From assembly GCA_025917655.1 (NCBI GenBank), contig CP084608.1, forward strand, positions 2,583,501 to 2,647,500: 64,000 bases of DNA, given 5' to 3'. The translations under genes and the position numbers were made by a program. Shown here piece by piece: positions 32,185-40,540 of this stretch (within the stretch, counting starts at the first letter, position 1; the number at the start of each line of letters is the position of its first letter). The notes beneath the pieces are model-generated. The model made no database searches. It was not told the origin of the DNA and saw only the letters and a program-made list of their open reading frames with translations. Source of the stretch: Chlorella sorokiniana. Its lineage: Eukaryota > Chlorophyta > Trebouxiophyceae > Chlorellales > Chlorellaceae.

Positions 32185-34893
32185 ATGTCTTCCTCTCCTT
32201 CCTCTAGTCCGCTGTTGCAAAAGCAGCAATGGATGCTGGTGTTCGCGGGAGCCACGGCAGCCAGCGTACTGCCGGCCCTGTGGCGCCGCCTGCGGTGGCG
32301 TGGCGGCAGCGCAGCAGCGGCGGCCGCTGCCGACCCCACTCGCAGCACCACTTCGTCGGCTGGCGGCGGCACGGGCGCTTATGAGACACGCCGGGCTGTG
32401 GATGAGTACCTCCAATTCCACTATGGGCGGCCAGAGGAAATCCTGCCGTACGATGTAGGGCCCAAGGTGGGAGGGTCGCTGAGGGCAGCGTCGCACCCGC
32501 TCGGGGCACAAGCTTCCTAGCAGCCTGCAGCGCATGCAGCACCCCAACATACGCATGCAGGCGGTGTAGGGCATAGTGTGCACCATTTAGTAAAAAGGAA
32601 CGGGAAAGTGAGGCACGCCACGGCACACCACTCCATTCCTGAGCCGGGGGGGTGCGCCGCAAAGTTGGCGGTTGGGACACCGGCGGGGATTGACCCCTGC
32701 CCCAGAGTCAGAAGTACCACGCACGTTTTCTAATCATCACCCGCCACCCCCACCCCCACTTCCCCCGCGCAGGACGCCCTGCGCTTCACCGAAGAGCTGG
32801 CTCTGCTGTGCGAGCGGCACTGCGCTGCGCTGAGGGACTTCACGGGTGAGCGGGAGGCAGCAGGGGAGCGGGGCCCCCTGCAGTGCTGTGTGCCGGGCCA
32901 TGCAGGTGTGCAGGGGCTCCCTCCTCCAGCAGCTTGCTTGCCGTGCCACGCAGCTGCCACGTGTTGCCTGCATGCTCTCCCGAGAGCAGCGCCATGCCGC
33001 GGCTCGGCGACCCCACCTGTCCCCTCGACTTGCCCCACACCACCTTTGATTACCGCTGCCATCCCTCACCTGCAAACCCTTCCCTCGCCCCCACCCCCAG
33101 GCGAGCGTGAGGAGGCCACCGTTCTGGACGTGGGCTGCGCCGTGGGGGCGCCTCCTTCCACCTGGCCCGCGCCTTCCCACACGTGCTGGGCCTGGACTAC
33201 TCCCAACACTTTGTGGCCGCGGCTAATGTGCGCCCGGGGTTGGGGGGACGGAGGGGTGGGGGCCGGTGGCGGCATAAGTACATGTGTGTGTGGTGTGTGT
33301 GTGTGGTTGGGGGGTGAGCCTGCTGAGTTGCAACTGTCGTGTGCCGTTGCGCTGCTGGAGCGCCACTGCAGCGCTGGCCCGCTGCTGCCACCAAGGCCCC
33401 TCCCAGTTGGGCCTTCGCCGCCCCTCGCGCGCGCCTGTCACTCCCATCCCGCCTTGCGCCTGCACAGACGATGAAGGAGCGAGGGTGGATGCGGTACACC
33501 GCCGTGGAGGAGGGTGAGCTGACGGTGGAGCGCACCGCCGTCGTGGCGGACGACGTGGACCGCAGCCGTGTGCGCTTCATGCAGGTGGGAGCCGCCTGCT
33601 GCACACCGTGTCCGCTGCGCGTAGTGGTTCTGTGTCCTTGTTGCAAATGCGGGTGGTTCGATTGTGTTGTGTGGGTGGGGGTGGCGGCGGTGTGTCAGCC
33701 AGTGTGTGACGCTTGCTCACACACCCAGTCAGCAGCGCAGAAAGTCCCACGCCTTTCGCTCTCCTCTGTTATCCACAGGCGGCAGGTCTCATGCTTGTGC
33801 GCTATGTTCCTGCGCTGCCGCTCGCGACGTGCAGCGCTGGGGCAGCCATAGGTGCCGCCAGTCACCTTGCCTTGCCGCCCCTCCCTCCGTGCAGGGTGAC
33901 GCGTGCAGCCTGCCTGCCAGCCTGGGGCCCGTGGATGCAGGTGAGCAGCTGCTGCCCCTGCTGTGCATGTCGTGCACCTGCTCTGACCTCTCTCGGCAAA
34001 CCAAGACCCGTGCTGGCCTCTGCCACAGTCCAGCCGTTGCGCCCTTGCCTCCTCAACCCTTCCTGGCCCCCGCATAGCACCGTCCCCGCCCACCCCCTTC
34101 AATCCGCTTGCAGTGCTTGCCGCCAACTTGCTGTGCCGCCTGCCAGACCCAAATGCGTTCCTGGAGCGCCTGCCGTCGCTTGTCAAGCCCGGCGGGGTGA
34201 GCCGCTGCATGACCACCCCGCCCCTCACTCACTCTCCCTGTGCTTCTTGACTGCGTGTCTCCTCACTGGTGTGCCATTACTCGACACTTGCGATGATTCG
34301 CTGATTAGTGTGCTGCATCCGCGCTGATCCGACCCCAAAACGCCTGCCCTACCGCCGCCACACCCCAGGTGCTGGTGCTGGTGAGCCCTTACAGCTGGCT
34401 GCCGGCATGGACGTCGCGCGACAGGTGGCTGGGAGGCTTCCACGGCAAGGTGAGGCAGCAGGCCTGCACGCAGCTCCAGTTGCGTTGCCCCCTGCTGGCC
34501 CCTCCACATGCTGCCTCACCTGTTGGAGCTGCTGCTTCCTTGGCCGTGTGATGAAGCTGCCCCCTGGCCCCCCGGCCGATCGACGAACATGCTGCCATCG
34601 CACATTTGCGCAGGATGGCAAAGCAGTGCAGTCTGCAGATGCACTCAAGGCGCTGCTGGCAGGTGGGAGGGGCGGCGGGAAGCCGCGGTGCCGCCTGCGC
34701 TGGGCGTCTGCCGCCGCCGCTGTTGCCCTCGCACTTGATGCAGCTGCACAGCTGTCCGTCCAGGACTGTGTTTCTGTGTCGCTGCAGCACATTTTGAGCT
34801 GGTGGAGGAGCGGGACCTGCCCTTCCTGATTCGTGAGCATCGCCGCAAGTTCCAGTGGGGGTCTCTCACGCGCTGGTCTGGCGGCGCAAGTGA
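32185..34893 (+). CDS. SAM methyltransferase, 4-mercaptohistidine N1-methyltransferase type (OvoA C-terminal domain), membrane-anchored
   Basis: Nine exons: 32185-32466, 32773-32845, 33101-33227, 33468-33584, 33895-33940, 34114-34196, 34369-34449, 34614-34662, 34788-34893. The start MSSSPSSSP leads into a hydrophobic stretch (WMLVFAGATAASVLPALW) and an Arg patch, a likely signal anchor. The rest matches the family that N-methylates 5-thiohistidine in ovothiol synthesis: EYLQFHYGRPEEILPYDVGP, VLDVGCAVGAS (SAM motif I), VLGLDYSQHFVAAAN, VEEGELTVERTAVV, GDACSLPASLGPVDAV, LAANLLCRLPDPNAFLERLP, GGVLVLVSPYSWLP, FLIREHRRKFQWGVSHAL. OvoA proteins normally carry a DinB/FGE sulfoxide synthase in front; none is fused or seen here. 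One base is missing in the G runs at 33144-33148 and 34857-34861; the second restores the natural stop at 34891-34893. Confidence 0.88.
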
Positions 34894-35342: not shown

Positions 35343-36705
35343 ATGCAGACTGCGCTCCAGCTTTCCCGCGCTCCCTTCGTGGCCCCCGCGCCAGCGTGAG
35401 CCGCTCTGGCCGCCAGCAGGTGAGGCACAGCGGAGGGTGTGGCGGGATAACATGCAGCCACCCTTCCTGCGCCGGGCCCACGCCGCTGCTGGCGCTGGCA
35501 GCAGCATCCGGGCGGCCGGATCGGCTCGAGTGTTTCTCAGGCATCTTTCTGCTGGCCCTTGCCTCTATTATTTTGATTTGTGACACTGCTGGCCCAGGTC
35601 CACCGTCAACTCACGGCTTTCTCCTTCCTGCCCCTCCTCCTACAGCGCCTGCAGGTGCGCGCCTATGGCGCCGCTGCCACCCAGCTGTCCCCTGAGCAGC
35701 AGGCCTTCCTGGAGCGCAAGCGCCAGAGCAGCAACTCCCCCGCCCCTGCGGCCGCCCCTCGGGTGGGTATCCAGTCCACAGAACGGGGCCTCGCTCTGTT
35801 GCGTTACCTGATGGCCTGCAACCAAACAGACACCGGCCCGGGCAGGCCACAACTTGGGATCCCTGCCTCATCTGCTGCCTCTCTGCGCTCCCCCTCCCGC
35901 CCTGCAGGGCCGCAGCGCTGCCTCGCCCGCTGGTGGCCTGAGCGCCGAGCAGCGGGAGTTCCTGGAGCGCAAGCGGCGCGAGTCCTCCGTGTCTGCCGCC
36001 CCCGCCCGACCCGCGGCCGGAGCGCCCCCGCGCCCCCGGCCCGCCGCGCCACCAGCTCTCCCCCTGCTGCCCGCCCCGCCTCCACCCCCGCCCCCTCCGC
36101 CTACAGCGCCCCCGCCCCCTCTGGCGGCCTGAGCGCCGAGCAGCGGGACTTCCTGGAGCGGAAGGCTCGCGAGACCAGCCGCTCCCCCGCCCCCGCCCCC
36201 ACCCGTGGTCGCTCTGCTGTGTCCGCCCGCCCGGCCCGCCCTTCGGCTCGCCCCGCCAGCCGCACCCGGCCCCGGCCTCCTACAGTGCGCCCTCCAACGA
36301 CCCCGCCTCCTACAACCCGCCTTCCTCCAACAGCGGTGCCGCCGGCCTGAGCGCCGAGCAGCGGGAGTTCCTGGAGCGCAAGGCTCGCGAGACCAGCCGC
36401 TCCCCCGCCCCCGCCCCCACCCGCGGCCGCTCTGCGGTGTCCTCCCGCCCGGCCCGGCCCTCGGCCCGCCCCGTGTCCAACTCCGCTGGCGCCTCCTCTC
36501 TGAACTCCAGCTACGCGTCCCCGCCCCTTCTGGCGGCCTGAGCGCTGAGCAGCGCGCTTTCCTGGAGCGCAAGTCGTCTGTCAGCCGCTCGCCCGCCCCT
36601 GCGGCCCGCGGCCGCTCTTCTGCCCCCTCCAGCAACGGCTCGGCCGCTGGCCTGAGCGCTGAGCAGCTGGCGTTCCTGGAGCGCAAGAGGCAGGGCATGC
36701 GATGA
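35343..36705 (+). CDS. Plastid-targeted basic repeat protein A (candidate pyrenoid Rubisco linker)
   Basis: Three exons: 35343-35419, 35646-35762, 35908-36705. The start MQTALQLSRAPFVAP plus SVSRSGRQQ|RLQVRAYGA looks like a chloroplast transit peptide (Ser/Arg-rich, no acids, VRA cleavage-like site). The mature protein has six copies of a helix, LSAEQREFLERK or close variants, at about 35678, 35938, 36129, 36347, 36538 and 36652. They are joined by basic, Ser/Pro/Ala-rich disordered spacers (SRSPAPAPTRGRSAVSARPA). Spacing is about 73, 64 and 38 residues in the last three. It ends FLERKRQGMR. Acidic residues sit almost only in the helices, so overall pI should be high. At least two one-base frame breaks are needed (run 35383-35387; around 36030-36110). 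I know no enzyme domain here. Repeat length, basicity, disorder and plastid leader fit EPYC1-like Rubisco linkers; that role is inferred. Confidence 0.7.
35678..36690 (+). repeat. Six LSAEQxxFLERK repeat units, gene A
   Basis: Helix codons start at about 35678 (variant QLSPEQQAFLERK), 35938, 36129, 36347, 36538 and 36652. The DNA core CTGAGCGCCGAGCAGCGG is nearly invariant. The first two units sit alone in exons 2 and 3, the others in one long exon, as expected from unit duplication inside exon 3. Confidence 0.85.
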
Positions 36706-37544
36706 GCGCCACTGCTACTCCCGCCAACCACAGCCCACGATGTTCGCCATCTGAGCAGGCGCACAAAACCCTAGCAGGGCTGTGAGCTGCTGGCTGCGCT
36801 AGGCGTGAAGCGGCGCACTGTGCACGCGGCCGTCCCTCCTCCCCGCTTGGATGTGCCTTTTGCACCAGGCACCGAGATTCCCCAGTTCCACCATTGTTTT
36901 GTCCACATGCAAGCCGCCGGTTACCTCAGCACCTGCACAAACGAACCCCGGCCCTTCATTCTTTGATGATTGATCAGCGGCGGCGTTTGCTGCCTGGCCT
37001 TTGCATTTTTCCCGCAGCCCCAGTTTGTCCTTGCAACGAATGCCTCGTTGTTTCAGCACTGTACCCTCCATCGCTTCCCCGCACAGCAAACTCATGATTT
37101 CATGAACTGACATGAATGGCATGTGACATGTCCCACGGTCAAGTCCTTCTGCAAGCCAGAACTCCATTGAAGAATGCGATGTTCTGTGGCAGTGGATGTT
37201 ACCTGTTCCTTCGGACAGCCTTGGCGTTGTCTTTCAAGGCCATGGACGTCAGCCTGGGCAACGCGGCCGCCGGCAGGGCGCAAGCGGCGGCAGCCCCTTG
37301 GCAGGCACTGGCTGTCGTGAGGCGCTTGCCGCCGCTTAAACTCTCCTGAAAGAGTATTAAGTGGCTTTTTGTTGCAGCAATGGCAATCCGTGCACGGAGA
37401 TGGGCGGGGCGAGCAGATGAGGATGTCCACGTTGGAGGAGTTCTGGGAGAGGTGTTCATGGGCCGCCAGCGCCCCTACGCTACCATCACTGGGAGTTTGG
37501 GATCCTATATAGCAGCGGCGTGCTTTTCCGCCAGTGCAAGCCGC
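36706..37544. promoter_or_regulatory. Intergenic region between repeat genes A and B
   Basis: About 840 bases, lower in G+C than the flanking genes. It contains a cluster of five CATG tetramers at 37093-37130 and a TATA-like TATATA at 37506-37511 shortly before the proposed ATG of gene B. No gene seen. I found no TGTAA for gene A. Confidence 0.45.
37506..37511 (+). promoter_or_regulatory. TATA-like box upstream of repeat gene B
   Basis: CCTATATAG in a G/C-rich setting, 34 bases before the proposed ATG at 37545. The spacing would give a very short 5' UTR, so either transcription starts just before the ATG or the true start codon lies elsewhere. Confidence 0.35.
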
Positions 37545-39354
37545 ATGCAGGCATCCATTCGCTGACTTCCCCGGCCGCCCTTGCGGCCCGCCGCTCCGGC
37601 GCTGCCCATGCGCCCCGGGTGAGCCTCCTTTCATTGCATGATGGCATTTGGGCTCCATCGTGGGACTGGGCTAGGGAGGACTCCTAGCCATTGACGCCAG
37701 CCTGCACACGCGCCTCAGCGGCTTGATTCGTTTCACAATAATAACTACATGTCTCTACAGCATCGGAGATGGGCTGTCCTTAGTCGCCGAAATCTGAGGC
37801 TCCTGCTGACGCCGGGGCACCAAGCACCACAAGCGCGCCGCTGCTGCCCCTGAAGCCCCCTCGCTGTGTGTTCCTGGTTGCTTTCAGCGCCTGCGCGTGG
37901 CGGCTGTCGCCATCGACACGTCCCGCCTGTCTGCTGAGCAGCTGGCCTTCCTGGAGCGCAAGCGTCAGTCCAGCGGCTCCCCCGCCCCGGCCCCCTCTCG
38001 GGTGCGCTGCGTGCAGCTCGGCAGGCACAGTTGCTGCCGAGGCCTGGCTTGTTGTTCTGCCTGCGCGGTGATGGCTATGCTGTAGCCTACCTGCCCTGCC
38101 CCGTGCTATGCACATGGAAATGCGCCGCCACTGGAACCTGCTGGCAGTCTGAGTGCCGCTGCCGTCGTGCGCCTGCCCTGCCTCGCAGGGCCGCAGCTCG
38201 GTCCCGGCTGCCTCTGCTGGTGGCCTGAGCGCCGAGCAGCAGGCGTTCCTGGAGCGCAAGCGCCGCGAGGCTTCCTCCTCCCCAGCCGCAACCCCGGCTC
38301 GGGTAAGCGCCACCTATCTCCTCCTTGACTCAGTGGTTGCAACGGTGCTTGGGCCAGTGCCCTCCAAGCCGCTCATTAGCAGCGGTTTGCCCGCTCTTCC
38401 TGTCCTGCTGTGTGCGGGTTGTACAAATTCTGATCTGTAACACAACCACCAGCTTCTTGCGGGCTTCCTGCAGGGTCGGAGCTCTACCCCTGCCCGCGGT
38501 CGCAGCCCCGCGCTTCGCCCTGCCAGCGCACCGCCTTCCAGCAGCCCCACCTCTTACAATCCTCCCTCCTCCAACAGCGGTGCTGGCGGCCTGAGCGCCG
38601 AGCAGCGGGAGTTCCTGGAGCGCAAGGCTCGCGAGACCAGCCGCTCCCCGCCCCCGCCCCCACCCGCGGCCGCTCTGCGGTGTCCGCCCGCCCGGCTCGC
38701 CCCACCAGCCGCGCCCCTGCCCCGGCCTCCTACAGTGCACCCTCAAGCAACCCCACCTCTTACAACCCGCCTTCTTCCAACAGCGGTGCCGCCGGCCTGA
38801 GCGCCGAGCAGCGGGACTTCCTGGAGCGCAAGGCTCGCGAGACCAGCCGCTCCCCCCCCCCCGCCCCCACCCGTGGTCGCTCTGCTGTGTCCGCCCGCCC
38901 TGCTCGCCCTTCGGCTCGCCCCGCCAGCCGCACCCCGGCCCCGGCCTCCTACAGTGCGCCCTCCAACGACCCCGCCTCTTACAACCCGCCTTCCTCCAAC
39001 AGCGGTGCCGCCGGCCTGAGCGCCGAGCAGCGGGAGTTCCTGGAGCGCAAGGCTCGCGAGACCAGCCGCTCCCCCGCCCCCGCCCCCACCCGCGGCCGCT
39101 CTGCGGTGTCCACCCGCCCCGCGCGTCCTGCCAGCCGCACCCCAACCTCGGCTGCCCGCCCCTCCAGCAGCGCCCCCGCTGGCGGCCTGAGCGCTGAGCA
39201 GCGTGCTTTCCTGGAGCGCAAGTCGTCTGTCAGCCGCTCGCCCGCCCCTGCGGCCCGCGGCCGCTCTTCTGCCCCCTCCAGCAACGGCTCGGCCGCTGGC
39301 TTGAGCGCCGAGCAGCTGGCGTTCCTGGAGCGCAAGAGGCAGGGCATGCGGTGA
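37545..39354 (+). CDS. Plastid-targeted basic repeat protein B (paralogue of A, candidate Rubisco linker)
   Basis: Four exons: 37545-37618, 37888-38001, 38189-38302, 38474-39354. Exon 2 opens RLRVAAVAIDTSRLSAEQ, aligned with RLQVRAYGAAATQLSPEQ of gene A. The leader MQASI...LTSPAALAARRSGAAHAPR is transit-peptide-like but needs one inserted base, so the start is tentative. Seven helix units (LSAEQREFLERK type) start at about 37927, 38225, 38591, 38797, 39016, 39187 and 39301. Spacers carry TSYNPPSSNSGAAG and SRSPAPAPTRGRSAVSARPA. One base is missing near 38647-38650; the reading frame from there to the stop is intact. The end FLERKRQGMR and the last 115 bases are almost identical to gene A. One unit more than A and the conserved exon structure indicate tandem gene duplication. 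No known domain; Rubisco binding in the pyrenoid is an inference from architecture. Confidence 0.75.
37927..39340 (+). repeat. Seven LSAEQxxFLERK repeat units, gene B
   Basis: Units at about 37927, 38225, 38591, 38797, 39016, 39187 and 39301. Spacing in the long exon is 206, 219, 171 and 114 bases. The 219-base unit (38797 to 39016) is almost identical to the gene A unit starting at 36129. The 114-base final unit is shared by both genes. Confidence 0.85.
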
Positions 39355-40540
39355 GCAGCTTCAGCGCCTTTCAGCACCCACGAGAAGATGAAGCCCCGTC
39401 TGGCGTATTGGCCACTGTGTGCTCTGTCGCGCTTCTTGGCCTAGCACTGCCCCACACCCAGCATTTCATGTAGCCCCCTGCTGGCGCTGCCCCAGCAGGC
39501 GCCCGCCCCCGCCAATGCCTGTGTGTGCGCCTTGCTTTGCCACCCCGCCGCGCCTGTAGAAGCGATGCCGAATCTGTCTTTGCCATGCCAGTTTTGTAGG
39601 CTCCACGCCCTAAGTCCCATCCCTCCATTCTTGCCTTTTCTCCTTTTTCGTCTTAGTCGCTCGCCACTCATTGAGCATGCCACAGTGGCAGCACAACACC
39701 GTGCAGCTCGATGTTGTTTCTGGGGACCTTGGCTCTCTCCCTCCACTCCTGTCCATAGCCTGCCTTTTATTTGGCTGTCATGCAGCCCTGCGTGTTTGCT
39801 GCTGCCCATCATTCTTTGCACCACCCCACAGCCGGGCGGTGCTTGCGGCCTCCTCGGTGTCGCCTGCTGCCTGAAGCACACGTGTAAGAGACAAGGCGCA
39901 CGCAATCAAAGCTACATTGGCGCGGCAAGACACTGATATGGATAGCTGTCACTTTGGAACGACGTCAGACTTGCGGCTTCATTTGCGGCTGACTATTGAC
40001 GCATCAGCATGCGGATGCATCTGTGGTCGTGCACCGCATGCGGGGAAAGGGAAGTCGTGCTCATTGCAGCAGGCCTGCTGCCTTCGCGGTTGTCGTGCCA
40101 ATTCTTGCCTTAACATTCCTGAACCGAACTGTCGCAAAGAGGCGGTTTGGGCATCAGCAGGCCCTTCGGGTGGACGTCAAGACCGTGCCCGTGCAATCTA
40201 GCTATGCCGCTAAGGGTTTTGCAGTGTCTATATCACATCTAACAATAAAATTTGCGACAATCCGCAGGAAACCCAATGGGCTGCCGGGAGGAAGCACTTC
40301 CACAGCCAAGGCTCCACCGGTGCACTTTTTCACTCCTTTTCAGCTTGCCTTTCTTCGCTGCTCTGAGCCTGAGTAGGTATGCAGAGTGCACATAGTTCAC
40401 CTCAAAGGCGATGCCATCCCCGGTCGGTCACCTTTCCGTCCCAGTACCGCGCGGTTTCGTGATGAGGCGTACCCGAGAGCGCGGCCTGCACTCACTTCCA
40501 TGTCGTCGGGCTTGCGTTGAGGCTACCTTCTCGCAAGCTT
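39355..40540. other. 3' UTR of repeat gene B and intergenic region
   Basis: About 1.2 kb. The TGTAA at 39883-39887 marks a 3' UTR of about 530 bases. Beyond it the DNA is less G/C-rich. An open plus-strand frame at 39996-40376 contains a hydrophobic stretch, but I could not support it as a gene. Confidence 0.45.
39883..39887 (+). terminator. TGTAA poly(A) signal, repeat gene B
   Basis: Chlorophyte-type TGTAA in GTGTAAGAG, 529 bases after the stop at 39354, with no other TGTAA before it on this strand. Confidence 0.6.

Follow-up and report, generated by a model that had tools for sequence, protein, structure and literature searches.

The gene pair and its repeats

A 64,000-base stretch of the Chlorella sorokiniana genome (assembly GCA_025917655.1, contig CP084608.1, positions 2,583,501 to 2,647,500; hereafter the window, in whose own numbering its features are given) contains two adjacent genes on the plus strand, A (35343-36705) and B (37545-39354), in which a short helix, LSAEQxxFLERK, is encoded six and seven times, respectively. 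Translation of the two genes gave 13 helices (6 + 7), and a search of all six frames of the window with the looser motif Q..[FY][LMI].[RK][KR] gave 13 matches, all inside A and B, confirming the tandem repeat pair proposed in a preliminary description made from the letters alone. At the DNA level, 12 repeat copies form one repeat family and are in register. After splicing, successive helices lie about 36-73 residues apart in both genes (by arithmetic from the gaps and exon models), close to the 38-73 residues first estimated. All five introns of the gene models have GT-AG borders. The features are as follows.

35343..35419, + strand: gene A exon 1, start of the putative chloroplast transit peptide (MQTALQLSRAPFVAPAPA...); ATG, GT donor, one frame break before the donor
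35646..35762, + strand: gene A exon 2, last part of the leader, with helix 1; AG acceptor, GT donor; RLQVRAYGAAATQLSPEQQAFLERK
35908..36705, + strand: gene A exon 3, helices 2-6 and stop; three internal frame changes
35685..35720, + strand: gene A helix 1
35938..35973, + strand: gene A helix 2
36129..36164, + strand: gene A helix 3
36347..36382, + strand: gene A helix 4
36538..36573, + strand: gene A helix 5
36652..36687, + strand: gene A helix 6
36522..36707, + strand: gene A 3' end, 97% identical to gene B 39171-39356 over 186 bases (repeat family D5)
37545..37618, + strand: gene B exon 1, start of the putative transit peptide; one frame break
37888..38001, + strand: gene B exon 2, RLRVAAVAIDTSR and helix 1; AG and GT borders, frame continuous with exon 3
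38189..38302, + strand: gene B exon 3, helix 2
38474..39354, + strand: gene B exon 4, helices 3-7 and stop; frame broken once, between helices 3 and 4
37927..37962, + strand: gene B helix 1
38225..38260, + strand: gene B helix 2
38591..38626, + strand: gene B helix 3
38797..38832, + strand: gene B helix 4, also helical in the AlphaFold2 model
39016..39051, + strand: gene B helix 5, also helical in the AlphaFold2 model
39187..39222, + strand: gene B helix 6, also helical in the AlphaFold2 model
39301..39336, + strand: gene B helix 7, also helical in the AlphaFold2 model

Intron positions correspond in A, B and a third gene of the same kind elsewhere in the genome (C2:1814k), one intron falling at the end of the leader and one after the first helix (R/GRS); B has an additional intron after its second helix. 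In both A and B, reading the leader means crossing a frame break (in exon 1 of A the ATG frame runs into a stop, and the leader continues in a different frame). Among the three genes, only C2:1814k has an intact leader, a candidate transit peptide spliced in frame (MHAAQLSQKAFAARPGMARASRVQ joined to HLRVQAVAIDTAKLSPEQ). The nearly identical 3' ends of A and B would reflect a recent duplication or gene conversion. Because the remaining repeats are less similar, and the number of repeats differs, we regard A and B as tandem paralogues with recent exchange, and not as a duplicate created by the assembly.

Membership of the CsLinker family and the docking site on Rubisco

CsLinker of C. sorokiniana UTEX1230 is a demonstrated pyrenoid linker, which binds the Rubisco large subunit, RbcL, through this same helix (PMC11570498; PDB 8Q05; PF24429). 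The CSLinker motif model of Pfam (PF24429) matched all eight window pieces above its cut-off (including four of four from gene A), the best match being at E 8.9e-52 in gene B (38434-39351), and a genome-wide scan with the same model gave 13 matches above cut-off in the window. Gene B matched the CsLinker(alpha3-alpha4) fragment in chain Z of 8Q05 at E 1.8e-28, and the five-helix gene C2:1814k did so at 3.3e-18, so that B is the closer of the two. Aligned directly to this CsLinker fragment, the C-terminal 232 residues of B scored 131.6 bits. Full shuffles of these residues never exceeded -16.1 bits, whereas shuffling only the spacers gave a maximum of 58.8 (mean 29.9) and shuffling only the helices a maximum of 72.4 (mean 55.3; n=200 in each case); since the score falls when either is shuffled, helix and spacer both contribute to the match. 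A purely compositional likeness was rejected, the full shuffles lying far below the real score.

On their sequences, A and B therefore belong to the CsLinker family, and the pair is a new tandem instance of a kind of linker already known since 2024. The reading of the genes as Rubisco linkers, which the preliminary description reached by analogy, is supported by these matches; the pair of paralogues with six and seven helices, which it thought might be new, stands as a tandem pair, the novelty not extending to the linker itself. Spacers resemble those of CsLinker (ASYSAP, TRGRSA), which also has a valency of six in common with one of the window genes; the difference is that three linker-type genes occur here (the tandem pair with 6 + 7 helices, plus C2:1814k with five), compared with the one gene reported in the available text of the CsLinker study (PMC11570498).

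How closely is the docking geometry retained? In the CsLinker structure, Phe173 sits in a pocket formed by Ile87 and Tyr97 of RbcL, with Leu174 or Met240 also in contact, while Arg176 reaches Glu51 and Lys177 reaches Asp86; Gln170 may provide a further contact (PMC11570498). A contact by Glu169 was proposed for tobacco RbcL. All 13 window helices read EQxxFLERK and so keep each of these contact positions (F, L/M, R and K, and also Q and E), although the pattern with which they were found partly imposes these residues. The organism's own RbcL (contig C15) differs from that of the CsLinker structure (CsRbcL) at 2 of the 315 residues ahead of a frame break; Glu51, Asp86, Ile87 and Tyr97 are identical and both differences are distant from them. 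The preliminary description left the docking subunit open between RbcL and the small subunit, RbcS; for members of this family, the partner to be expected is RbcL.

Two pieces of the B protein have isoelectric points (pI) of 11.8 and 11.9 and are rich in Ser, Ala, Pro and Arg. Run on the single sequence of the last 232 residues, which hold four of the seven helices (gene B only was modelled), AlphaFold2 predicted exactly four helices, one on each motif present, with best block means of 75-91 for the predicted local distance difference test (pLDDT). Overall, the model is poor (mean pLDDT 59.2; predicted template-modelling score, pTM, 0.19), as expected for a disordered chain. The basic, disordered chain with one helix per repeat that had been proposed for both genes is borne out for these parts of B. 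With the spacing of 36-73 residues in A and B, the model of the B tail agrees with the arrangement expected of a CsLinker-type protein, in which the repeats of a disordered chain each hold a single short helix, 20-120 residues from the next.

We consider it highly probable (at about 0.92) that A and B encode pyrenoid linkers of the CsLinker family, which are imported into the chloroplast and condense Rubisco there, and that the helix also recruits other chloroplast proteins. Each product would be a disordered, basic chain carrying six or seven short helices, and each helix would bind one Rubisco large subunit in the equatorial N-terminal part of that subunit, with its Phe and Leu in the hydrophobic pocket, its Arg on Glu51 and its Lys on Asp86. 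Several weak sites per chain, multiplied by the eight sites on each Rubisco, could then produce the cross-linked condensate that is the pyrenoid matrix, and starch-binding, activase, CSP41-like and possibly membrane proteins bearing the same helix might be brought to it. EPYC1 of Chlamydomonas is alike in its working, being a disordered linker built of repeats that each contain one helix for binding Rubisco; it differs in having little sequence similarity, an independent origin and a docking site on the small subunit (PMC11570498).

The helix on other genes of the genome

The exact pattern EQxxF(L/M/I)xRK occurs at 38 sites in 38.8 Mb, in seven clusters, compared with one site for the reversed control. 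A second pattern, which dropped the first residue and required one more basic residue at the end, gave 35 sites (4 in the control) and added those in activase, CSP41-like and C11:1808k genes; 32 of the 35 lie in motif loci, and the three singletons (C2:938789, C2:954713 and C13:1050613) were set aside as chance in view of the four control sites. In the gene models the helix is present in 11 genes if A and B are taken separately (nine of these together hold 45 copies, and C11:87k and C11:1808k have one more each), with sequences that include SPEQQAFLERK, SPTQLEFMARKR, SPEQLEFLIRKR and SQQQLEFLARKR. The nine loci outside the window comprise the third linker, three genes with an upstream CBM20 domain, one activase, one CSP41-like gene, two with possible membrane spans and one other. 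The genome scan with PF24429 yielded 43 matches, and the 27 above cut-off fell only at the window genes, C2:1814k, C6 and C2:4581k. Relatives were also sought in viral contigs, where 36 stretches matched a pattern and none was confirmed.

Three of the carriers, C6, C9 and C11:672k, have a starch-binding CBM20 domain 813, 856 and 1015 bases, respectively, upstream of the helix cluster on the same strand. There are 22 CBM20 matches genome-wide with E up to 10, among which none adjoins C11:87k or C11:1808k; for such a match to precede the helices by no more than 2 kb, in the same orientation, at three of nine motif loci (the window pair counted once) has P ~7e-9 under a uniform model. With exons joined by hand, the domain scored 1.9e-24 at C6, 4.8e-17 at C9 and 8.7e-17 at C11:672k; single exons of these genes matched it too. 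At C6 (C6:1082475-1084345, minus strand) an open chain runs without a frame change from where CBM20 begins to the first helix, across four introns (the first GC-AG, the other three GT-AG). The gene has eight pattern-fitting helices, besides a degenerate one at the C-terminus (PEQLAYLRRAGKL). For C9 and C11:672k only some of the gaps in the chain could be closed, and the frame of C9 is broken within the CBM20 domain. A GC-AG intron is possible at the same place in the CBM20 domain of C6 and C9 (CAG/GCGAGT and CAG/GCGAGC), which argues that these genes are related. The degenerate helix of C6 is similar to the C-terminal end of C9, PEQLAFLKRSGKL. A second CBM20 match (C6:1086140-1086313) adjoins the C6 gene; the sequence scanned there shows no unsplit helix close to this match, so the array of helices in C6 may have been added after a tandem duplication.

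The activase gene (C11:87106-88348) has a transit-like leader followed by VQNWLSQGLITDQEAKSFSPTQLEFMARKRGASPS, a Ser/Pro/Arg-rich spacer and the activase N-terminal region, all in frame; the chain continues in frame to the core exon (C11:88k), with GT-AG introns throughout the gene model. A 58-residue exon piece of the core matched Rubisco activase structures (PDB 4w5w, E 8.2e-26; 3t15, E 1.3e-25), to which this gene adds the N-terminal CsLinker-like helix and spacer. A 40-residue element of it, used as query, found eight matches in the genome with E up to 10, itself included, all within the helix set. Those in the CSP41-like tail (two) and at C2:4581k reached 1e-7 to 3e-7, and the others 0.002 to 0.03. 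An activase paralogue at C7:742k shares 95-97% identity with the query where the two could be matched; a scan of 6.5 kb around it showed no unsplit helix, and neither did one of 6.0 kb around the more distant activase locus C5:284k. Such twin activases, one with the helix and one without, amount to a natural experiment on activase recruitment. Part of the interface at which CsLinker docks is also bound by activase in Solanaceae (PMC11570498), so one may conceive of a tethered activase acting on, or competing at, that face.

The last exons of the CSP41-like gene, C12:115k, can be spliced without loss of frame to a tail containing QQLEFLARKR, a second copy following after a frame change. Its upstream exons read like the chloroplast epimerase CSP41, a tentative name; when joined by hand they matched PF01370 with 21.6 bits (cut-off 20.9). 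Single exon pieces gave no epimerase match in Pfam, and a phmmer search of one exon frame against PDB found nothing.

At C2:4533k (four helices), C2:4581k (eight helices, the two types sharing a single open frame) and C11:672k, the open frames 3' of the helices, which were taken by assumption as part of the same genes, contain Ala-rich hydrophobic stretches and, by eye, coil-like regions. Six hydrophobic segments chosen by eye have mean Kyte-Doolittle values of 1.66-1.94 over 19 residues; since they are rich in Ala, this is only suggestive of membrane spans. Pfam searches of the downstream frames (five pieces each from C2:4533k and C11:672k, four from C2:4581k) found no domain above cut-off, one C2:4581k piece giving weak coiled-coil models. 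These three genes are candidates for links between the thylakoid and the Rubisco matrix. The remaining gene, C11:1808k (C11:1808721), has one copy of the helix at the end of its protein (YQHVTPEEMSTLSPAQCEFLERKRSRRGV), which by eye is like the C-terminus of C2:1814k; apart from a sub-threshold CSLinker match, no domain was found in the six pieces searched.

In Chlamydomonas, one motif, different from the present helix, occurs on EPYC1, SAGA1, SAGA2, CSP41A, RBMP1 and RBMP2 (PMC8320531) and mediates Rubisco binding and pyrenoid assembly (PMC10473226). SAGA1 and SAGA2 combine CBM20 with Rubisco-binding motifs (PMC13167743, PMC11649565), as the C6 gene would and those at C9 and C11:672k may; the motif is different, C6 bears an array of eight helices, and the likeness is taken as that of functional analogues. 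CSP41A is a putative chloroplast epimerase with the Rubisco-binding motif of its species, comparable to C12:115k, and the membrane proteins RBMP1 and RBMP2 may be compared with C2:4533k, C2:4581k and C11:672k and their putative spans (PMC8320531). Here too the motif differs, and the tentative CSP41 name for C12:115k is based on a PF01370 match just above cut-off together with sequence likeness. The set of candidate carriers mirrors that of Chlamydomonas and fits both a published prediction and a speculation in the 2026 SAGA paper, in which carbohydrate-binding domains are joined to each species' own motif (PMC13167743).

It seems likely, with less assurance than for the linkers themselves, that one RbcL-docking helix common to at least 10 genes (three linkers, three CBM20 tethers, two or three candidate membrane tethers, an activase isoform and a CSP41-like epimerase) builds the pyrenoid. 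If so, C. sorokiniana would have a full, independently evolved counterpart of the RbcS-docking motif network of Chlamydomonas, with the same classes of partner, and would go further in holding Rubisco activase on its substrate, beside the face where the activase acts; a shared helix suggests a single docking code for assembling the whole CO2-fixing compartment. The spread of the helix through the genome raises the interest of the finding beyond the window pair, and the genes listed are concrete candidates for following up such a docking network. As far as could be checked, its spread to starch-binding, activase and epimerase genes is undescribed: no paper on such a network in Chlorella was found in the open-access literature, a coverage that leaves out bioRxiv and most subscription journals and so gives weak evidence of novelty.

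Alternative explanations

Could A, and perhaps B, be a decaying duplicate, leaving only C2:1814k or one of the pair as a working linker? Several points weigh against our reading. There are four frame breaks in A (one in exon 1, three in exon 3) and two in B (one in exon 1, one separating helix 3 from helix 4), so either or both could be decayed copies; their 3' ends have recently exchanged sequence; the contact residues were partly imposed by the search pattern; and in C. sorokiniana a single protein was common to 13 FLIPPer candidates and 360 co-immunoprecipitation partners (PMC11570498), which implies that a paralogue there may be silent, minor or absent. However, the plastid rbcL gene, which must work, breaks frame in the same way in this assembly (C15:29000-32500, from 1034), where two bases are missing near codon 316 by comparison with the CsRbcL protein and the gene continues in another frame, probably through assembly error, and the helix repeats of the C6 gene change frame too. 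We infer from these two cases that the breaks in A and B are mostly of the same origin. In addition, the break between helices 3 and 4 of B coincides by eye with a run of C one base shorter than in the sister repeats, the helices on either side of the breaks keep the full motif, and a few synonymous codon changes are seen at the fixed residues over the 45 genomic copies. Decay of A or B thus seems unlikely. Upstream of gene A (33111-33240), a methyltransferase-like motif (DVGCAVG / ASFHLARAFPHVLGLDYSQHF, by eye) is split over two frames, another possible sign of single-base losses in the assembly. It is very improbable that the products are instead basic, Ser/Arg-rich proteins of the chloroplast or nucleus that bind RNA or other nucleic acids and resemble linkers in composition: their high pI and their richness in Ser, Ala, Pro and Arg would suit such a role, but the 200 shuffles of the same composition, the match to a curated family and the intact leader of the C2:1814k paralogue speak against it.

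The linker reading of the pair being preferred, it may still be asked whether the wider motif is simply a common amphipathic helix, found on CBM20, activase and CSP41-like genes by chance or convergence and without binding Rubisco. A number of results count against a network on this score. Allowing one mismatch gave 83 sites and as many as 25 in the reversed control (two singletons from that search, C4:1346939 and C10:515123, were accordingly set aside as chance). PF24429 scored below cut-off at C9, C12, C11:87k and C11:1808k, and its genome scan did not list C2:4533k (one piece of which reached 14.2 bits in a separate search) or C11:672k, so that six of the nine outside loci owe their inclusion to other evidence; two of its 43 matches lie outside the helix set (C6:2678738 and C8:337562), and two of 14 control genomes have matches below cut-off. 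Chance or convergence is nonetheless rather unlikely, though a little less so than decay of the pair: the two stricter patterns left only one and four control sites, CBM20 precedes the helices at three loci far more often than a uniform model allows, every match of the activase element falls inside the helix set, and the single open frame of C2:4581k, by joining both types of helix, links the two types directly.

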